Shown piece by piece: positions 2,053 to 10,977 of a DNA stretch of 63,182 nt. Each line of letters opens with the position of its first letter. The stretch's first letter is position 1. Source of the DNA: Loktanella sp. (lineage in GTDB: Bacteria; Pseudomonadota; Alphaproteobacteria; Rhodobacterales; Rhodobacteraceae); the NCBI GenBank assembly GCA_020201155.1, contig JAIVHI010000001.1, positions 16,375 to 79,556 of the forward strand, written 5' to 3'. The position numbers and the translations under genes were made by a program. The notes under the pieces are model-generated. The model made no database searches, was not told where the DNA came from, and saw nothing but the letters and a program-made list of their open reading frames with translations.

Positions 2053-3516
2053 CTAAGCCGCGACCAGTGGCGTGCTGGCCGCGATGGCCCAGGCCAGAAT
2101 GACCCCCAGCGCCAGCCCCGCCGTCGCGGGCCCGCTGCGGGCCGCGATCCAGCGCCCCGCCAGACCGTAAACGCCCCAGAACAGCACCATGACCGGCAGC
2201 ACGGTAAAGGCGATCCCCAGACGCGGCGCCAGCAGCATCGCCCCGAACAGCGTCACGATGGGAAGCACGCGCAAAAGCAACCGCAAAACCCAGCCGCCCG
2301 TCCGCGCCATCAGCGCATCGCCAAGGCAGAAGGGCACCGTTCCCAGCAGCAACAGCGCCATGACCTCCAGCCGCGGCCCGGTGGGGATGAAGGCCGCGCC
2401 ATAGCGGTCGAGCGCCACCGCAAAGACCCCCAAGCCCCAGACCAGCAAGAGAGCGAAACCCAACCAGTGGACCCGTCGCGGCCCCTGCCCCGCCCGCCAA
2501 AGCAGCGCCAGCTGCACCACGCCCCAGACCCCGAAGAAGGCCGCCAGCGCGCCAAAGGCGCTCAGCCCCAGCGCGCCTGAGGGGAAGAACACCGCTGCCG
2601 CAAGTGCGGGGGCCACGGGCACCGCCAGTGCCAGCCACGCGCCGCGCTTGCGGCTGTCGCCCGCGCCGGTCCGTTTCACCAGCATCGCCAAGGGCCACGC
2701 CAGCGCCAGCAACGATGCCAACAGCAGCAGCAGCCAAGGCGCGATAACCGGCAGGGGGCCAGACCCCGCCCGCCCCGTCGCATCCGCGATCCAGTCCCGC
2801 GCCTCGACCAGCGTCTTGGGGCTGTAAAGCACACCCACGTGCCCCACCAGCGGCGCGGCCACCACCCGACGTTGCACGCCCTCTGCCGTGACCGTCTCAC
2901 CCTCCCCCGCCGCCATCTCGACCAGCTGCAGCCGGTCCAGCGCCACCTCCCGCAGCCGCCCCTCGAAGGCCCCCGACACGATCAGCAATCGCTCGGGAAA
3001 GGCAGGTGTCACAGCGTCCGAATACATCGAAATCGCGACGACCGCCGCCGTCTCGATCCTGTCCGACGCGCGAATCACCACATCTGTTGCCATCGAATGG
3101 CCCAGCAGCGCCACCGGCCCCGCGACGCCCGGCAGGTCACGCGCGGCCTGCGTCACCGCGACCGTCTGCGCCACAAGCTGCGCCGTGGTCCCTTCCAGCG
3201 TCGTCACATCCGCATCCATCGGCACCCTATGCCGCCCGTGCCCGTGAAAATCGAAGGCTGCGACAGTGAACCCGGCCCGCGCCAGCGCAATCGAGATCGG
3301 CTCCATCATCTGCCGCGACCCCGCATAGCCATGGGCCACCACGACCAGCGGCGCGGGATCGTCGCCAAGACCCCGCCAGAGGGTCACGGGCGTCTCACCC
3401 AGCGTCATCCGCTCGGACGTCACGCCCGCCCGCTGCCGCTCCAGCATCACCACGGCAAACAGCGCGCCCAGCAGGGCCGCGACGGTGACAATCCTGAGCA
3501 TGCGGGTCCGGGTCAT
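2053..3516 (-). CDS. Alpha/beta hydrolase fused to a polytopic membrane domain
   Basis: A 487-residue two-part protein. After an N-terminal anchor (about residues 5-25) comes an alpha/beta hydrolase domain with the oxyanion motif VVAHGYAGS, the fold signature FDFHGHGRH and the nucleophile elbow LLGHSMA (GxSxx, Ser nucleophile). From about residue 260 the rest is eight or so hydrophobic helices. The hydrolase part probably faces the periplasm because it follows a single N-terminal anchor, which is inference. No substrate can be assigned. The ATG at 3516 has AGGG upstream; a GTG at 3525 is an alternative. It lies between the MFS gene and the P450 operon on the same strand, with about 48 bases to the reductase. 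Confidence 0.7.
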   Translation of the reverse strand: MTRTRMLRIVTVAALLGALFAVVMLERQRAGVTSERMTLGETPVTLWRGLGDDPAPLVVVAHGYAGSRQMMEPISIALARAGFTVAAFDFHGHGRHRVPMDADVTTLEGTTAQLVAQTVAVTQAARDLPGVAGPVALLGHSMATDVVIRASDRIETAAVVAISMYSDAVTPAFPERLLIVSGAFEGRLREVALDRLQLVEMAAGEGETVTAEGVQRRVVAAPLVGHVGVLYSPKTLVEARDWIADATGRAGSGPLPVIAPWLLLLLASLLALAWPLAMLVKRTGAGDSRKRGAWLALAVPVAPALAAAVFFPSGALGLSAFGALAAFFGVWGVVQLALLWRAGQGPRRVHWLGFALLLVWGLGVFAVALDRYGAAFIPTGPRLEVMALLLLGTVPFCLGDALMARTGGWVLRLLLRVLPIVTLFGAMLLAPRLGIAFTVLPVMVLFWGVYGLAGRWIAARSGPATAGLALGVILAWAIAASTPLVAA

Positions 3517-6346: not shown

Positions 6347-7243
6347 GTGCCCCCCATGATCCCGCCCCAAAACCTCGATCTTCGCAGTCTGCACATCCTG
6401 ACCGTCGTTCACCGCGAAGGCAGCTTTTCCCGCGCGGCCGAGGTGCTGCGCGTCAATCAATCCGTGGTCAGCTACGCCATCGACAAGCTGCGCGGCGTCT
6501 TTGGCGACCCGCTTTTCGTGCGCGAAGGCGGGCGCACCTTACCCACGGAACGCTGCGAGGCCATCGCCCGCCACGCCAGCCGCATCCTGTCGGACGTGGC
6601 CACCCTGCAAGAGGCACCGGCCTTCGACCCCGGCACCGCGCAAGGGCGGCTGATTATCGCCTGCAACTTCTACGAACGCGCCCTATTGGTGCCGCGCATC
6701 GCAGCGGACCTGCGGCGCGCGGCCCCGCAGCTTCAGATCGAGGTGGTGGATGCAGGCGGCACCGGTCACGAGCGTCTGTTCGACGGGTCGGCGGATCTGC
6801 TGATCGGCCCTTACCGCAGGCAGGACGCGGCCCTTTACGAACGCGGCCTGCTGACGGACACCTACGCCTGCCTGATGGACCCCGCCCATCCCGCCGGCGC
6901 CGCGCCGCCCACGCTGGACGCCTACCTTGGATTTCAGCACATCGTCGTCACCTACGGCGGGCGCTGGACCTCGCCCTATCTGGCCGAACTCGACCGGCTG
7001 GGGCACCGGCTGCAGGCGCCCCTGCGGGTGCCCGGCCCGGCGGGCATCGCGCGGCTGGTGGCGGGGTCCGACCTTGTGGCGACCGTACCGCGCAGGCTCG
7101 CCCGCGACATGGCACAGGGTCTGGCCATGCAGCCCTGCCCCGTGGATGTGACCCTGTCGGTCAAGATGGTCTGGAGCCAGCGCACCCACCACGCCGCCCT
7201 GCCCGCTTGGGCGCGCGAGCGTATCGCAGGCTTGGCGACCTAA
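6347..7243 (+). CDS. LysR-family transcriptional regulator of the P450 operon
   Basis: A 298-residue LysR regulator. The N-terminal winged helix-turn-helix is LRSLHILTVVHREGSFSRAAEVLRVNQSVVSYAIDKLR (residues about 10-47, shown here by its ends SLHIL and DKLR), with the usual FGDPLFVREG wing. The remainder is a substrate-binding-like effector domain. It is divergent from the P450-ferredoxin-reductase operon and is the obvious candidate to control it. The open frame begins at a GTG; an ATG nine bases later (6356) is an equally possible start. The effector is unknown but is presumably the P450 substrate or a derivative. Confidence 0.88.
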   Translation: MPPMIPPQNLDLRSLHILTVVHREGSFSRAAEVLRVNQSVVSYAIDKLRGVFGDPLFVREGGRTLPTERCEAIARHASRILSDVATLQEAPAFDPGTAQGRLIIACNFYERALLVPRIAADLRRAAPQLQIEVVDAGGTGHERLFDGSADLLIGPYRRQDAALYERGLLTDTYACLMDPAHPAGAAPPTLDAYLGFQHIVVTYGGRWTSPYLAELDRLGHRLQAPLRVPGPAGIARLVAGSDLVATVPRRLARDMAQGLAMQPCPVDVTLSVKMVWSQRTHHAALPAWARERIAGLAT

Positions 7244-7298: not shown

Positions 7299-7318
7299 AC
7301 CTTCCCCGTGGGGAAGGT
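7299..7318. repeat. Palindromic partition-site copy 1
   Basis: Sequence ACCTTCCCCGTGGGGAAGGT: two 9-base arms around a central GT. The dyad extends two more bases on each side (AA...TT). It lies in the gap between the lysR stop and the parB stop, 13 bases from copy 2. It is one of seven copies confined to 7.3-10 kb and is a candidate ParB-binding centromere (parS). Confidence 0.7.
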
Positions 7319-7331
7319 TTCAGGCCGCACC

Positions 7332-7353
7332 GACCTTCCCCATGGGGAAGGTC
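7332..7353. repeat. Palindromic partition-site copy 2
   Basis: A perfect 22-base palindrome, GACCTTCCCC-AT-GGGGAAGGTC when split at its centre. Its right end overlaps the stop codon of parB (7352-7354 on the minus strand). It is the longest perfect copy of the family. Confidence 0.7.
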
Positions 7354-8437
7354 AGCTTCCGTCGAGGGTATCGAGCAGCAATGCGATGCCCTGTTCGAGC
7401 CTGCGTCGGTCGACGCCTGTCAGATCGCGGTCCAGCTTCAGCGTCAGCTGCCCCTCGCCCGCCGTGCATTTCACACGCTCGCCGGCGTGGCGCAGGTCAA
7501 AAGTCGTGCGGGGGCGCCGCGCGGTCTTTGGCCCATCGCCCTCAGCCCTTTGCGGGGGCGCCTCGGGCTCTTCGCCGACGAAACTGCGCACCAGCGCCAG
7601 CTCTTCCTCCGGCGTGCGATGCCGCGCTTCCTCGAAGTGTGCGGCCAGCCGCGCCAGCGCGCCGTTGCCCGCCTCCAACCGCTTGAGCAGCGCCAAACCA
7701 AGGTTGCGCGGCAGGCGCTCGGCATGTGTCAGGTGCTTGTCGGCCATCTCCATCAGGCGGGCAAAGCTGCGGATATAGCTGCGCTTGTTATAGGCGGCGG
7801 ATTTGAACAGCTCGGCCACGGCGTCCTCGACGCTCATCTGCGGCGTGTCGGGATCGGCGGAATAAGCGCGGGCGACGTTCGCCATCTCGGCAAAGGACAG
7901 ATCACGGCGCACGAGGTTTTCGTCCACCATCTGCCGGTAAAGCCCCGCGATACCTTCCCCACGGGGAAGGACGGCGGCGGGAATCTCGGCCCAGCCATCG
8001 CCCTCTTCGGCCTGCAACATCCGGTAAGCGGTCATCCGGCGGTAGCCCTGGATCAACTCGTAGCGCCCGTCGGCGCGTTCCTCTACGCGGATCGGGTTCG
8101 ACAGCCCCACGTCGCGGATAGACGCGACAAGCTCCGGCAGGTCTTCGTCGTCGCCCTTCTTGCGGTCGCGTACCAGCGCCTCGGTCAGAATGTCGTCCAC
8201 GGGGATCATCCGCGTGACAAGACCGGCCTTTTTCAACGCCACATATTCATGGGCCAGCGAATCGTTCTCGGCCCTGATCCGCGCCTCGGCAGCGGCGCGT
8301 TCGGTCATGGCACCGGCGTTTTCGGAAATGGCGCTGGCCATCGGGCTGCGGCGCTTGGGCTCGTCCAGTGAAGAGATCTGCGGGCCGGGGTCGGCCTCGG
8401 GCATCTCGATGTCGAAGACGCGGCGTTTCTTGGTCAT
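7352..8437 (-). CDS. parB: Plasmid partitioning protein ParB
   Basis: A 361-residue ParB-type DNA-binding partition protein that should bind the palindromes scattered through this module and be moved by ParA. The ParB/Srx-like N-terminal domain spans roughly residues 75-170, with the LSNPIRVEERADGRYELIQG region and the arginine patch GYRRMTAYR (the GERRxRA box of the family). Central helix-turn-helix candidates lie near 185-245. The C-terminus (LTLKLDRDLTGVDRRRLEQGI) resembles the dimerisation end of plasmid RepB/ParB proteins. A GAGGAG site precedes the ATG. It is downstream of parA with one palindrome in the 54-base gap, another inside the gene and another over its stop codon. Confidence 0.9.
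   Translation of the reverse strand: MTKKRRVFDIEMPEADPGPQISSLDEPKRRSPMASAISENAGAMTERAAAEARIRAENDSLAHEYVALKKAGLVTRMIPVDDILTEALVRDRKKGDDEDLPELVASIRDVGLSNPIRVEERADGRYELIQGYRRMTAYRMLQAEEGDGWAEIPAAVLPRGEGIAGLYRQMVDENLVRRDLSFAEMANVARAYSADPDTPQMSVEDAVAELFKSAAYNKRSYIRSFARLMEMADKHLTHAERLPRNLGLALLKRLEAGNGALARLAAHFEEARHRTPEEELALVRSFVGEEPEAPPQRAEGDGPKTARRPRTTFDLRHAGERVKCTAGEGQLTLKLDRDLTGVDRRRLEQGIALLLDTLDGS
7952..7971. repeat. Palindromic partition-site copy 3, inside parB
   Basis: Core CCTTCCCCACGGGGAAGG within the parB reading frame, where it encodes Leu-Pro-Arg-Gly-Glu-Gly. The outermost base pair is lost (A on both sides), but the 18-base core keeps the dyad. Presence inside a coding region suggests that spacing or copy number is selected. 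Confidence 0.65.
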
Positions 8438-8453
8438 GTTCTGCTCCTCTCAC

Positions 8454-8473
8454 ACCTTCCCCACGGGGAAGGT
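8454..8473. repeat. Palindromic partition-site copy 4, parA-parB intergenic
   Basis: ACCTTCCCCACGGGGAAGGT, complete 9+2+9 dyad, in the 54-base gap between the parA stop and the parB start, about 17 bases upstream of the parB start codon. Binding here could affect parB translation or transcription as well as partition. Confidence 0.7.
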
Positions 8474-8491
8474 CGGGGTTGATCTCAGGCT

Positions 8492-9814
8492 CTAACGGGC
8501 CTTTCGGGTCTCATTCGTCTCGGCCATCTCGCGCCATGCGACCAGCAGGCTCGCGTGATATTCCTCCCACGCGCGGTCGAATGTCGTCCGCGCGCGGCGC
8601 CATGTCTCGCGCGTCATTTCGCGATAGTCGATCTCGTAGACCGAGCTGAGGAAGCGGTTCGACTGCTCGACCGCGCGGGTCATCTCGATGGTGTTTTCCA
8701 TCAGCTTATCCTCGAACACCTTGCCGAAGGCCTGATACATCGCGCGGTGCAAGTCGTTGCCAGGCTCGAAGCGGGTCAACAGAAAGCGTACGTCGCGGAA
8801 GACCTTGGGCAGGTCCATGTTCCCCGTGGGGAAGGTGCCGGTGAAGCCATGCGCCAGATCCTCCAGCGCCTCGGACAGCTGGCCGATAAAGGACGTGGTG
8901 CTGTCGTATTCCCAGTACCCGGGACCGGAAGGGATGCACAGCATGTCCGCCGCAAAGACCGCGTTCATCGACTGGTAACCGATCGCGGGCGGGCAGTCGA
9001 AAAAGATCAGGTCCCATTCGTCGTCGGGCAACTGGTCGAGATAGCGAGACACGGCAGCAAAGAACGACCATTCGGGGTTGAGGTGACGATACTGGGCGCT
9101 GGCGAATTCCACGAAGGCCGCGTTGGCGCAGGACGGGATGATGTCGATGGTCGACCAGTTGGTCGGCCGAATGAAGTCGTGTATCCGCAGCGTCTGCAAA
9201 CCAAGATCGCGGATCGAATCGGGGATGCTGCGCTGGGGCAGGGAGGCACCGCTTTCGGCAGCGACCGAGGTGGCGTTCATGCGGTCTGTCTCGTGCACCA
9301 GATCCCGGGCCATGATGCCCCAGACGGTCTGCTCCTCGCTCACATCCGTAAGACCCATCGAATGCGACAGCGTCGCCTGCGGGTCGAAGTCGACCACCAG
9401 CACGCGGTAGCCCTGGAGGGCGGCGGCATGGGCGAAGTGCAGGGCGACGGTCGACTTGCCGGCACCGCCCTTGAAATTGGCGATGGCGGACCGAAAGGCG
9501 CGCCCCTTGGGGCGTTCGGGCATCAGGGGCTTGCCGCGCGACTTGAGCTTGCGGCGCAGCGTGTTGACCTCTTCGAGGCTGAACCACCGCTGCCGCCCGT
9601 CGGGTTCGACCTTCCCCGTGGGGAAGGTGGGGTCGGCGGCCAAGCGTCCGCGAAAGGTGGACTGATTCATCCCGAGGATCAGCTCGGACACCTCCCACGA
9701 GGAGAAGCGGCGCAGGGTCTTTTCATTCTCGGGCGAGAAGGTCTGCTGCCTAATCCAGCCCTGCATCTTGAGTGAGCGGGCCTGTAGCGCGCGAAGGTCG
9801 TCGTGATCTACCAT
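8492..9814 (-). CDS. parA: Plasmid partitioning ATPase ParA
   Basis: A 440-residue ParA with an N-terminal DNA-binding region (about residues 30-100, including a MerR-like SSWEVSELILGMNQSTFRGRL helix-turn-helix segment) followed by the deviant Walker A motif KGGAGKST at 115-122. Then come the Walker A' LVVDFDPQATLSHS and the switch FFDCPPAIG. It is the ATPase that segregates the replicon with ParB. The ATG at 9814 is chosen because the extra upstream residues have no family similarity. Two palindrome copies lie within the gene and encode TFPTGKVEP (about 63-71) and TFPTGNMDL (about 322-330), which look like insertions relative to a minimal ParA. Confidence 0.9.
   Translation of the reverse strand: MVDHDDLRALQARSLKMQGWIRQQTFSPENEKTLRRFSSWEVSELILGMNQSTFRGRLAADPTFPTGKVEPDGRQRWFSLEEVNTLRRKLKSRGKPLMPERPKGRAFRSAIANFKGGAGKSTVALHFAHAAALQGYRVLVVDFDPQATLSHSMGLTDVSEEQTVWGIMARDLVHETDRMNATSVAAESGASLPQRSIPDSIRDLGLQTLRIHDFIRPTNWSTIDIIPSCANAAFVEFASAQYRHLNPEWSFFAAVSRYLDQLPDDEWDLIFFDCPPAIGYQSMNAVFAADMLCIPSGPGYWEYDSTTSFIGQLSEALEDLAHGFTGTFPTGNMDLPKVFRDVRFLLTRFEPGNDLHRAMYQAFGKVFEDKLMENTIEMTRAVEQSNRFLSSVYEIDYREMTRETWRRARTTFDRAWEEYHASLLVAWREMAETNETRKAR
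8817..8836. repeat. Palindromic partition-site copy 5 (degenerate), inside parA
   Basis: ATGTTCCCCGTGGGGAAGGT: the right arm is intact but two positions of the left arm differ from consensus. It encodes TFPTGN of ParA. This is the weakest copy and may be a decayed site. Confidence 0.55.
9609..9628. repeat. Palindromic partition-site copy 6, inside parA
   Basis: ACCTTCCCCGTGGGGAAGGT, identical to copy 1, within the N-terminal DNA-binding region of parA and translated as TFPTGKV. It shows no mismatch to the consensus despite lying in coding sequence. Confidence 0.68.
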
Positions 9815-9960
9815 GATTTCGCCGGACGTTAATTTGAGTTCTTTTCCCAAATACGCTGAATTTGGCGTTTCTGTCCAGTGCAGATAAGATGGTGTCACGA
9901 AACGCGTTCAGCGTGCGGGGCCTTGGATCATTGGCATTGTGCAGCCCGAGGATCCGAATC

Positions 9961-9980
9961 ACCTTCCCCGCGGGGAAGGT
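9961..9980. repeat. Palindromic partition-site copy 7, upstream of parA
   Basis: ACCTTCCCCGCGGGGAAGGT, a perfect 20-base palindrome, 146 bases upstream of the parA start in the parA-rep divergent interval. It may act as a parA operator as well as a centromere copy. Confidence 0.7.
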
Positions 9981-10028
9981 CGGGATAGAGCCTGATTTAG
10001 GGGGACAGGCTGGCACGCCCCACCACCC

Positions 10029-10079
10029 ATTGGGGGGACATCAAGGGCCATTAGGGTGACGCCCTGCATGTCCCCCAAT
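10029..10079. repeat. Long interrupted inverted repeat in origin region
   Basis: The arms ATTGGGGG(G)ACAT (10029-10041) and ATGTCCCCCAAT (10068-10079) pair over 12 positions with one bulged G. Nested inside are AGGGC (10044-10048) and GCCCT (10061-10065). A third GGGGGACA copy lies at 10001-10008. It could be a replicase operator, an origin element or a transcribed hairpin. Confidence 0.5.
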
Positions 10080-10143
10080 ACCATAAAGATACCGATTTAG
10101 ATTCAAGGATTGGGTCGAAGCAACGAGGTGGGAACGCGAATCC

Positions 10144-10172: not shown

Positions 10173-10293
10173 TCCTGCAGGGTTGGGAAAAGCGTTGTGA
10201 AAGCCTTACACCACCGTGCGTTAGACACGGGAAACGCAACACCCCCAGCCCCGAGGTAGACTAACCCTGACGACTCGGGTGCAGGACAATGAG

Positions 10294-10977
10294 ATGAGCC
10301 AGATCAAGGCGGTGGGTCGCAGCGCCCCCGCGATGAAATATGACATTCTGACTGCGTTGATGGTTTTGTCCGCGCATGATGGCGGAGTCGACGGGCGTCT
10401 TGCCGGGCGGCTGACGCTGCTGATCACCGCGCGGTTCAACTGGCAACGCGGGTCTCTGGCCACGGGCCTGCGCGAGATCGCGCGGCTTTGGGGCGTGACG
10501 GAACGGACGGCCAAGCGCGAGATGGCGGCGCTGAAGGCGCGGGGCTGGATCACGGTGCGCCGGGCGGCGGCAAGGGGGCGAGTCACGGAATACGGGCTGG
10601 ACCTGACGGCAATTCTGGATGCAACGCGGGCGCATTGGGCGGCGGTCGGTCCGGATTTTGTCGCGCGGATGGGGGCAGGGGCCTCTGAAGCCCCAGGCAA
10701 TGTCGTGCCATTCCAGCCTGCGGGGGCCGTGCAGGCCGAAGGTCACGTGGGCACGCTTTGGCCCGGTGCGGCGCAACGGCTGGCGGCGGCGGACGGGGCG
10801 ACCTACACGGCGTGGTTCGCGCGGCTGGCCGAGGCGGAGCGGACGGCGACCGCGCTGACGCTGCATGCGCCCAGCAAGTTCGCGGCGCAATACATCCAGA
10901 CGCATCTGATCGGGCGGTTGCTGGCCGCGGTGAGCGCCGAGGACCCCAGCGTCATGACGGTGCGGGTGATCGGTTAG
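10294..10977 (+). CDS. DnaA-like plasmid replication initiator
   Basis: A 227-residue replicase of the Rhodobacterales DnaA-like plasmid type. The N-terminal half (about 20-110) is a winged-helix replication-protein fold with GLREIARLWGVTERTAKREMAALKARG (ends GLREI and LKARG). The C-terminal 70 residues, from LWPGAAQRL (about 155) to LLAAV, match the N-terminal domain of chromosomal DnaA, as in LWxxxLxxL...F..W...L...L.APNxF...I. There is no AAA+ domain, so it is not a chromosomal DnaA. The ATG at 10294 follows AGGAC; a GTG at 10279 is an alternative. It is divergent from parAB and overlaps the convergent lysR by 26 bases. It identifies the window as part of an extrachromosomal replicon or an integrated one. 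Confidence 0.82.
   Translation: MSQIKAVGRSAPAMKYDILTALMVLSAHDGGVDGRLAGRLTLLITARFNWQRGSLATGLREIARLWGVTERTAKREMAALKARGWITVRRAAARGRVTEYGLDLTAILDATRAHWAAVGPDFVARMGAGASEAPGNVVPFQPAGAVQAEGHVGTLWPGAAQRLAAADGATYTAWFARLAEAERTATALTLHAPSKFAAQYIQTHLIGRLLAAVSAEDPSVMTVRVIG

Follow-up and report, generated by a model that had tools for sequence, protein, structure and literature searches.

Palindromes recurring in and around parAB as a predicted distributed centromere of a DnaA-like replicon in Loktanella

The window considered here, a stretch of 63,182 nucleotides from a draft genome of Loktanella sp., contains the rep-parA-parB module of a DnaA-like replicon. In and around its parA and parB genes lie seven copies of one palindrome, ACCTTCCCC-NN-GGGGAAGGT. 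Because dozens of related plasmids have matching sites at equivalent positions, the arrangement is, as far as sequence comparison goes, real and old. The palindromes are predicted to be bound by the ParB of the module as parS sites forming a distributed, partly intragenic centromere; that they are ParB sites with a centromere role is given a probability of about 0.9. The original prediction for this DNA had likewise read them as a distributed centromere, and that reading gains support from orthologous positions, class-matched variants, codon evidence and residues of the ParB recognition helix that predict the palindrome class.

The seven sites and their counterparts in related plasmids

The seven sites are placed as follows:

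Site 1, 9961..9980: upstream of parA (-164 from ParA codon 29); ACCTTCCCCGCGGGGAAGGT, perfect arms
Site 2, 9609..9628: in parA, ParA T91-V97 (TFPTGKV), +188 from codon 29; perfect arms
Site 3, 8817..8836: in parA, ParA T355-M361 (TFPTGNM), +980; two arm mismatches, one in the core
Site 4, 8454..8473: intergenic, at the parA/parB junction; perfect arms
Site 5, 7952..7971: in parB, ParB V156-G162 (VLPRGEG); outer mismatch, perfect core
Site 6, 7333..7352: sharing one base, the last, with the parB stop codon (7352-7354); perfect arms
Site 7, 7299..7318: 3' of parB; perfect arms

A scan of all 63,182 bases with the motif ACCTTCCCCNNGGGGAAGGT at up to 3 mismatches returned these seven copies, all within 7299-9980, and no eighth, as had been claimed. 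Of the seven start positions originally listed six are exact, while the second copy begins at 7333 and not at 7332. Dinucleotide shuffles of the window gave a mean of 0.02 copies and a maximum of 1, so the cluster is not a product of chance. Three copies do lie inside genes (9609 and 8817 in parA, 7952 in parB), and the one said to span the parB stop codon overlaps its final base. The further statement that the centre varies while both arms are kept holds for the centre, where four different dinucleotides occur (GT, AT, AC, AC, GT, GT and GC on the plus strand), but the arms are perfect in only five of the seven copies. At 7952 only the final base departs from the motif; at 8817 two bases do, both on the outside of a single arm. 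The 16-bp core inside the motif, CTTCCCC-NN-GGGGAAG, is intact in six copies, and at 8817 one base of it differs.

For comparison, 80 loci that encode a close relative of ParA, almost all of them in Rhodobacterales, were lined up on codon 29 of parA, and occupancy was counted over 81 loci (these and the window) by a motif scan together with a search for repeated palindromes that used no preset motif. Sites recur at the same offsets: upstream of parA (42 loci, mostly at -101 to -130 from codon 29), at +188 (41 loci) and +980 (73 loci, class-matched) in parA, at the parA/parB junction (57 loci), at about +1800 in parB (16 loci, counted from +1780 to +1880) and just 3' of parB (61 loci). Other DnaA-like plasmids, proposed earlier as a check, have sites at these positions too, either identical or in a class variant, and in most modules the search without a preset motif found no other repeated palindrome. 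At parA +980, pPGA1_262 of P. inhibens DSM 17395 carries the palindrome AGTCCCCGCGGGGACG, which belongs to still another arm class. A locus from Pseudooceanicola endophyticus (L059) has, besides its distributed sites, a clustered array of eight CTTCCCC-type sites 3' of parB, 2433-3116 from ParA codon 29 and about 50-120 bp apart.

The genes of the module are:

parA, 8492..9814, minus strand: type Ia, RepA-like Walker ATPase; the open reading frame (ORF) extends back to 9898
parB, 7352..8437, minus strand: ParB_N/CTPase-type domain and helix-turn-helix (HTH)
DnaA-like replication initiator gene, 10279..10977, plus strand: DnaA_N domain

ParA relatives mostly align from codon 29 (9814). With its N-terminal extension the protein has AAA_31, CbiA and ParA-type matches, the RepA-like TIGR03453 falling below cut-off. 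The DnaA_N-type initiator is divergent from parAB, which is the arrangement of DnaA-like replicons. The same module type is carried by Sulfitobacter indolifex pDSM14862_b, typed as DnaA-like I (PMC9025767). The initiator is not a repC in an operon with repAB, as in repABC replicons; the gene after parB (6347-7243, opposite strand) is by its translation a LysR-like ORF and not repC. Between parA and the DnaA-like gene, at 9997-10083, lie iteron-like TTRGGGGGACA repeats and a 16-nt inverted repeat (10033-10048 / 10061-10076), which are possible origin or Rep-binding sites.

Arm classes and coding sites

The arms vary between plasmid lineages; within a plasmid, coding and non-coding sites share a class. 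The main classes are CTTCCCC, CTTATCC and CTTACCC; GTTCCCC (as in S. indolifex pDSM14862_b), TGTCCCC and TTTACCC are smaller. Comparison of the +980 coding site with the extragenic sites gave 34 CC/CC, 16 AT/AT and 16 AC/AC pairings; the six mixtures all stay within the A classes, and CC is never paired with A. Mixed forms occur in L026, L030, L052, L061 and L101; among these, some repeat one asymmetric form at most or all of their sites, CTTCCCC/GGGTAAG in L101 and CTTCCCC/GGAAAAG in L052 and L061. Three further loci (L046, L048, L038) have CTTCCCC-type sites in parB, at about +1808 to +1842, while their other sites are CTTATCC. These parB sites are possible fossils of an earlier specificity; alternatively, the peptide LPRGE could hold them.

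The coding copies appear from codon usage and alignment to be kept for the DNA and not for the peptide. A relative with no site at +188 (L027) encodes the near-identical peptide DPSLPAGKVEP by CTGCCGGCCGGCAAG, which contains no palindrome. Since relatives lacking the site spell almost identical residues in different codons, the +188 segment is not an insertion. In parA, the rare Leu codon TTA makes up 54 of the 78 Leu codons inside sites (69%) versus 26 of 2902 outside them (0.9%). TTA serves for Leu in the sites of A-class plasmids; among the CTTCCCC plasmids of the group to which the window belongs, most have a change from Leu to Phe in its place. The residues at +980 track the class (TFPTG, TLPTG, TLSADK) and drift where the site has been lost (L082, L087, L100). 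It had been asked whether the TFPTG segments are insertions, and they are not: an LPxG(K/E) peptide was there beforehand, and the site is superimposed on it. Selection for the DNA site over the peptide, also part of the original prediction, is borne out by the relatives with other codons and by the TTA bias inside sites.

Insertion of a mobile coding repeat was ruled out for both parA sites, as site-less relatives have an equivalent ungapped peptide. The register of the +188 site differs between two ParA lineages (188 and 189), perhaps because a near-palindrome can spell the peptide LPAGK. In the ParB of L026, an in-frame insertion, TLPADKVGEETLPADKVG, bears two palindromes, so that a site was gained there by insertion and not by codon change.

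ParB and the dispersed copies

By sequence and modelled fold, the ParB of the window is akin to Noc, KorB and Caulobacter ParB. It matches ParB_N (E 1.4e-9), and its AlphaFold2 model, with a predicted local distance difference test (pLDDT) score of 85, comprises a CTPase-type domain, an HTH and a C-terminal domain; Foldseek matches of the model to those three proteins have E values of 1e-7 to 4e-5. The GxRR and EN-x-x-R residues are invariant across 51 ParBs, and the modelled CTPase (ParB_N) fold makes CTP binding a putative activity. One element of the model bears directly on the palindromes:

Predicted HTH recognition helix of ParB, residues 216-232, 7742..7792, minus strand: from AlphaFold2; codon of residue 215 at 7793-7795

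Ranked by normalised information over the scored ParB columns, residues 217 and 215 come first and second as predictors of palindrome class, and they sit at the start of this helix. CTTCCCC plasmids mostly have Q or N at 217, CTTATCC plasmids S217 with P215, and most CTTACCC plasmids T or V at 217 with S215. In an alignment with the solved ParB 4umk, the invariant R219 matches an Arg that by extended alignment equals R173 of Caulobacter ParB, a specificity residue that contacts parS (PMC7383237). Two loci (L087, L100) encode a ParB with a GYQ helix (Q217) and have no site near parAB; CTTCCCC sites lie 4-10 kb away.

On these grounds a dimeric ParB, built as a CTPase-type clamp with an HTH, would recognise the 16-bp core. 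Loading and spreading at parS are established for ParB-parS pairs in general and, by analogy with known ParB proteins, ParB would load at each palindrome, slide and spread over the adjoining DNA. A single partition complex covering about 2.7 kb of the rep-parAB module might then be moved by ParA. The centromere would be distributed, and would overlap the genes for its own machinery because several of the predicted loading sites lie inside parA and parB. The use of different arms by plasmid lineages would presumably enable their coexistence, and site 1 may also serve as an operator. Palindromic candidate parS sites near parAB, specific to the ParB lineage, are expected of type Ia ParABS systems, and such sites are found here.

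The source genome is a 3.69-Mb draft in 342 contigs (91% complete), the window lying on contig C177 (79.6 kb). In the rest of it, at up to 2 mismatches, there are only two further copies:

C187:2714-2733 (L102): perfect; intergenic, upstream of a pirin-like gene, on a contig that also has homoserine dehydrogenase
C66:14896-14915 (L103): one mismatch; just 3' of the ferrochelatase gene

Among 198 genomes of the family, CTTCCCCNNGGGGAAG is present in 21 and a close ParA in 59, and most CTTCCCC sites lie in clusters no more than a few kb from parA. Extra copies scattered elsewhere were seen in 4 of 15 genomes with a CTTCCCC-class ParB versus 5 of 138 without the ParA (Fisher p 0.006, from a small, hand-made table drawn up post hoc, in which the class of the 15 genomes was taken from the sites beside parA and from which G034, as carrier of an orphan ParB, was left out).

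One relative, G034, carries 33 exact copies on a chromosome of 4.15 Mb and one more on C4; among 395 genomes no other exceeds 7 exact copies with a GC centre. Its orphan ParB is chromosomal:

Orphan parB of G034, C1:3419968-3420954: flanked by two palindromes, one in the start region (G034 C1 loci L160, L161, L105-L116)

No close ParA was found in this genome, nor a parA beside the orphan parB. The protein shares 68% identity with a plasmid ParB (L089) across 296 residues. It lacks the N-terminal ParA-interaction segment: of the first ~75 residues most are missing, the conserved KRRxFDI block among them. With the origin placed near 3.517 Mb by canonical parS sites, 26 of the 33 sites fall in the origin half (p 0.0013), or 14 of 20 after 10-kb collapsing (p 0.12). 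A genus-mate, G238 (83% complete), has neither the ParB nor the sites. The case supports the pairing of ParB with the palindrome. A chromosomal ParB homologue that lacks both a ParA partner and the ParA-interaction segment and is accompanied by many chromosomal sites resembles Noc, which suggests a Noc-like derivative. That a plasmid-family ParB was captured by the chromosome and remade as a Noc-like or chromosome-organising protein is put forward tentatively, at rather less than even odds. If it were so, the single chromosomal copies in the window's genome, G032 and G035 would represent early steps of such a capture.

Dispersed copies also occur in G235 and G018. G235, a 2.2-Mb draft in which no relative of the window's ParB or ParA was found, has 128 copies of CTTATCC-NN-GGATAAG within longer intergenic repeats, often near contig ends (L151-L159). 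G018 (contigs C1, C2, C3) has four single copies of CTTCCCCGCGGGGAAG and no ParB relative; these are possibly left from a lost plasmid.

Alternative readings, known systems and meaning

Several observations weigh against a distributed ParB-parS centromere. The ParB tree shows only some two changes of palindrome class, and a single-clade origin of the CTTCCCC class is not rejected (approximately unbiased (AU) test, p 0.63), so the residue-class correlation is confounded by descent; the independent-contrast test of the recognition-helix residue against class had only one to two independent pairs. The canonical ParA-binding motif, (L/F/I)G(K/R)G(L/F/I) (LG[KR]GL), was not found at the ParB N-terminus, which holds a conserved K-x-R-R-x-F-D-I block in its place. 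Its lack is compatible with type Ia membership, since P1 ParB also has a divergent ParA-binding motif (PMC12704722). Some loci are without a site at one or more positions, and therefore not every site need be functional. The contigs C187 and C66, with the two outlying copies of the window's genome, look chromosomal, and an additional operator function is conceivable for the sites that precede parA.

This last point leads to the most serious rival, in which the palindromes are operators of ParB (or ParA) for parAB autoregulation and long-range silencing, as with KorB of RK2, and the centromere is elsewhere or is one copy only. KorB is among the closest folds to ParB; of the 81 loci, 42 have a copy upstream of parA and 57 have one at the junction. 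However, the intragenic copies and those 3' of parB do not occupy promoter positions, most modules have no other repeated palindrome, and operator and centromere roles can coexist; this rival is considered unlikely. Binding of the palindromes by the DnaA-like initiator or the ParA N-terminal domain, as origin or handcuffing sites, would fit a module that adjoins rep and has site 1 between rep and parA. It is very improbable, given that recognition-helix residues of ParB predict the class (in scoring that covered ParB columns only), that the same palindrome flanks an orphan ParB whose neighbours include no parA and no rep, and that iteron-like repeats of another sequence adjoin rep.

A generic dispersed palindrome (like a repetitive extragenic palindromic (REP) element, a terminator or a coding repeat of the Rickettsia palindromic element type) that spread into the locus has in its favour the 33 chromosomal copies of G034, the 128 of the CTTATCC form in G235 and the apparent single chromosomal copies in the window's own genome. 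Equal frequency throughout the genome had been named as the outcome that would speak for such a repeat, but seven of the nine copies of this genome lie within 2.7 kb and about 90% of the 198 genomes have none. Sites at orthologous positions over 80 loci, agreement of class across sites, parA sites overlaid on existing codons instead of inserted, and the cognate orphan ParB of G034 leave this reading scarcely credible. The CueR-like promoter dyad has the form ACCTTCC-N7-GGAAGGT; such a dyad was ruled out, the spacer in the window being 6 and the positions not promoters. Terminator hairpins were also rejected: some dispersed copies have A/T flanks, but there is no consistent T-run.

Centromere palindromes are not new in DnaA-like replicons. 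Conserved palindromes were reportedly proposed (Petersen et al., 2011) as centromere anchors that separate compatibility groups in the DnaA-like replicons of Rhodobacterales, which have the same rep-parA-parB module. The present comparison shows orthologous intragenic positions, support at the level of codons, five or more arm classes together with mixed forms, and the recognition-helix correlation. Group-specific and intragenic parS are likewise known from repABC replicons, where RepB binds several palindromes, part of them within ORFs, whose distance from the operon is usually 0.5-4 kb but can reach 12 kb (PMC9040568, PMC5613091), and where groups -1 and -2 are separated by a single reciprocal base change (PMC5613091). 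The palindromes described here are similarly group-specific, multiple and in part within ORFs; unlike in repABC, two parA positions and one parB position recur across loci. Chromosomal ParB-parS systems share the 16-bp palindrome, the CTPase ParB and several loading sites, some intragenic, but differ in sequence (TGTTTCACGTGAAACA) and in sites spread over the origin domain. KorB of RK2 is a CTPase ParB-family protein with many operators scattered over the plasmid (PMC11790492); it acts largely in gene silencing, whereas the window's sites are concentrated in and around parAB. The orphan ParB of G034 is like Noc and its binding sites (NBS) in being derived from ParB, in having no ParA partner and in having sites spread over the chromosome. 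It is of different descent, and membrane binding or division control of the Noc kind would be hypothetical for it. In the searchable literature no description was found of recurring intragenic positions with class-matched codons, of the recognition-helix key or of the G034 case, and searches with the palindrome sequences gave nothing relevant.

If the palindromes are parS sites, a shift in specificity requires several intragenic and intergenic sites and one DNA-binding protein to change together, a constraint visible in the ParA protein itself (F-P-T-G vs L-P-T-G vs L-S-A-D). The natural classes, the mixed forms and the possible fossils (L046, L048) make it testable how ParB-parS pairs switch specificity without loss of function. 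They also let the centromere class of these common marine plasmids, and probably their compatibility, be predicted from sequence.

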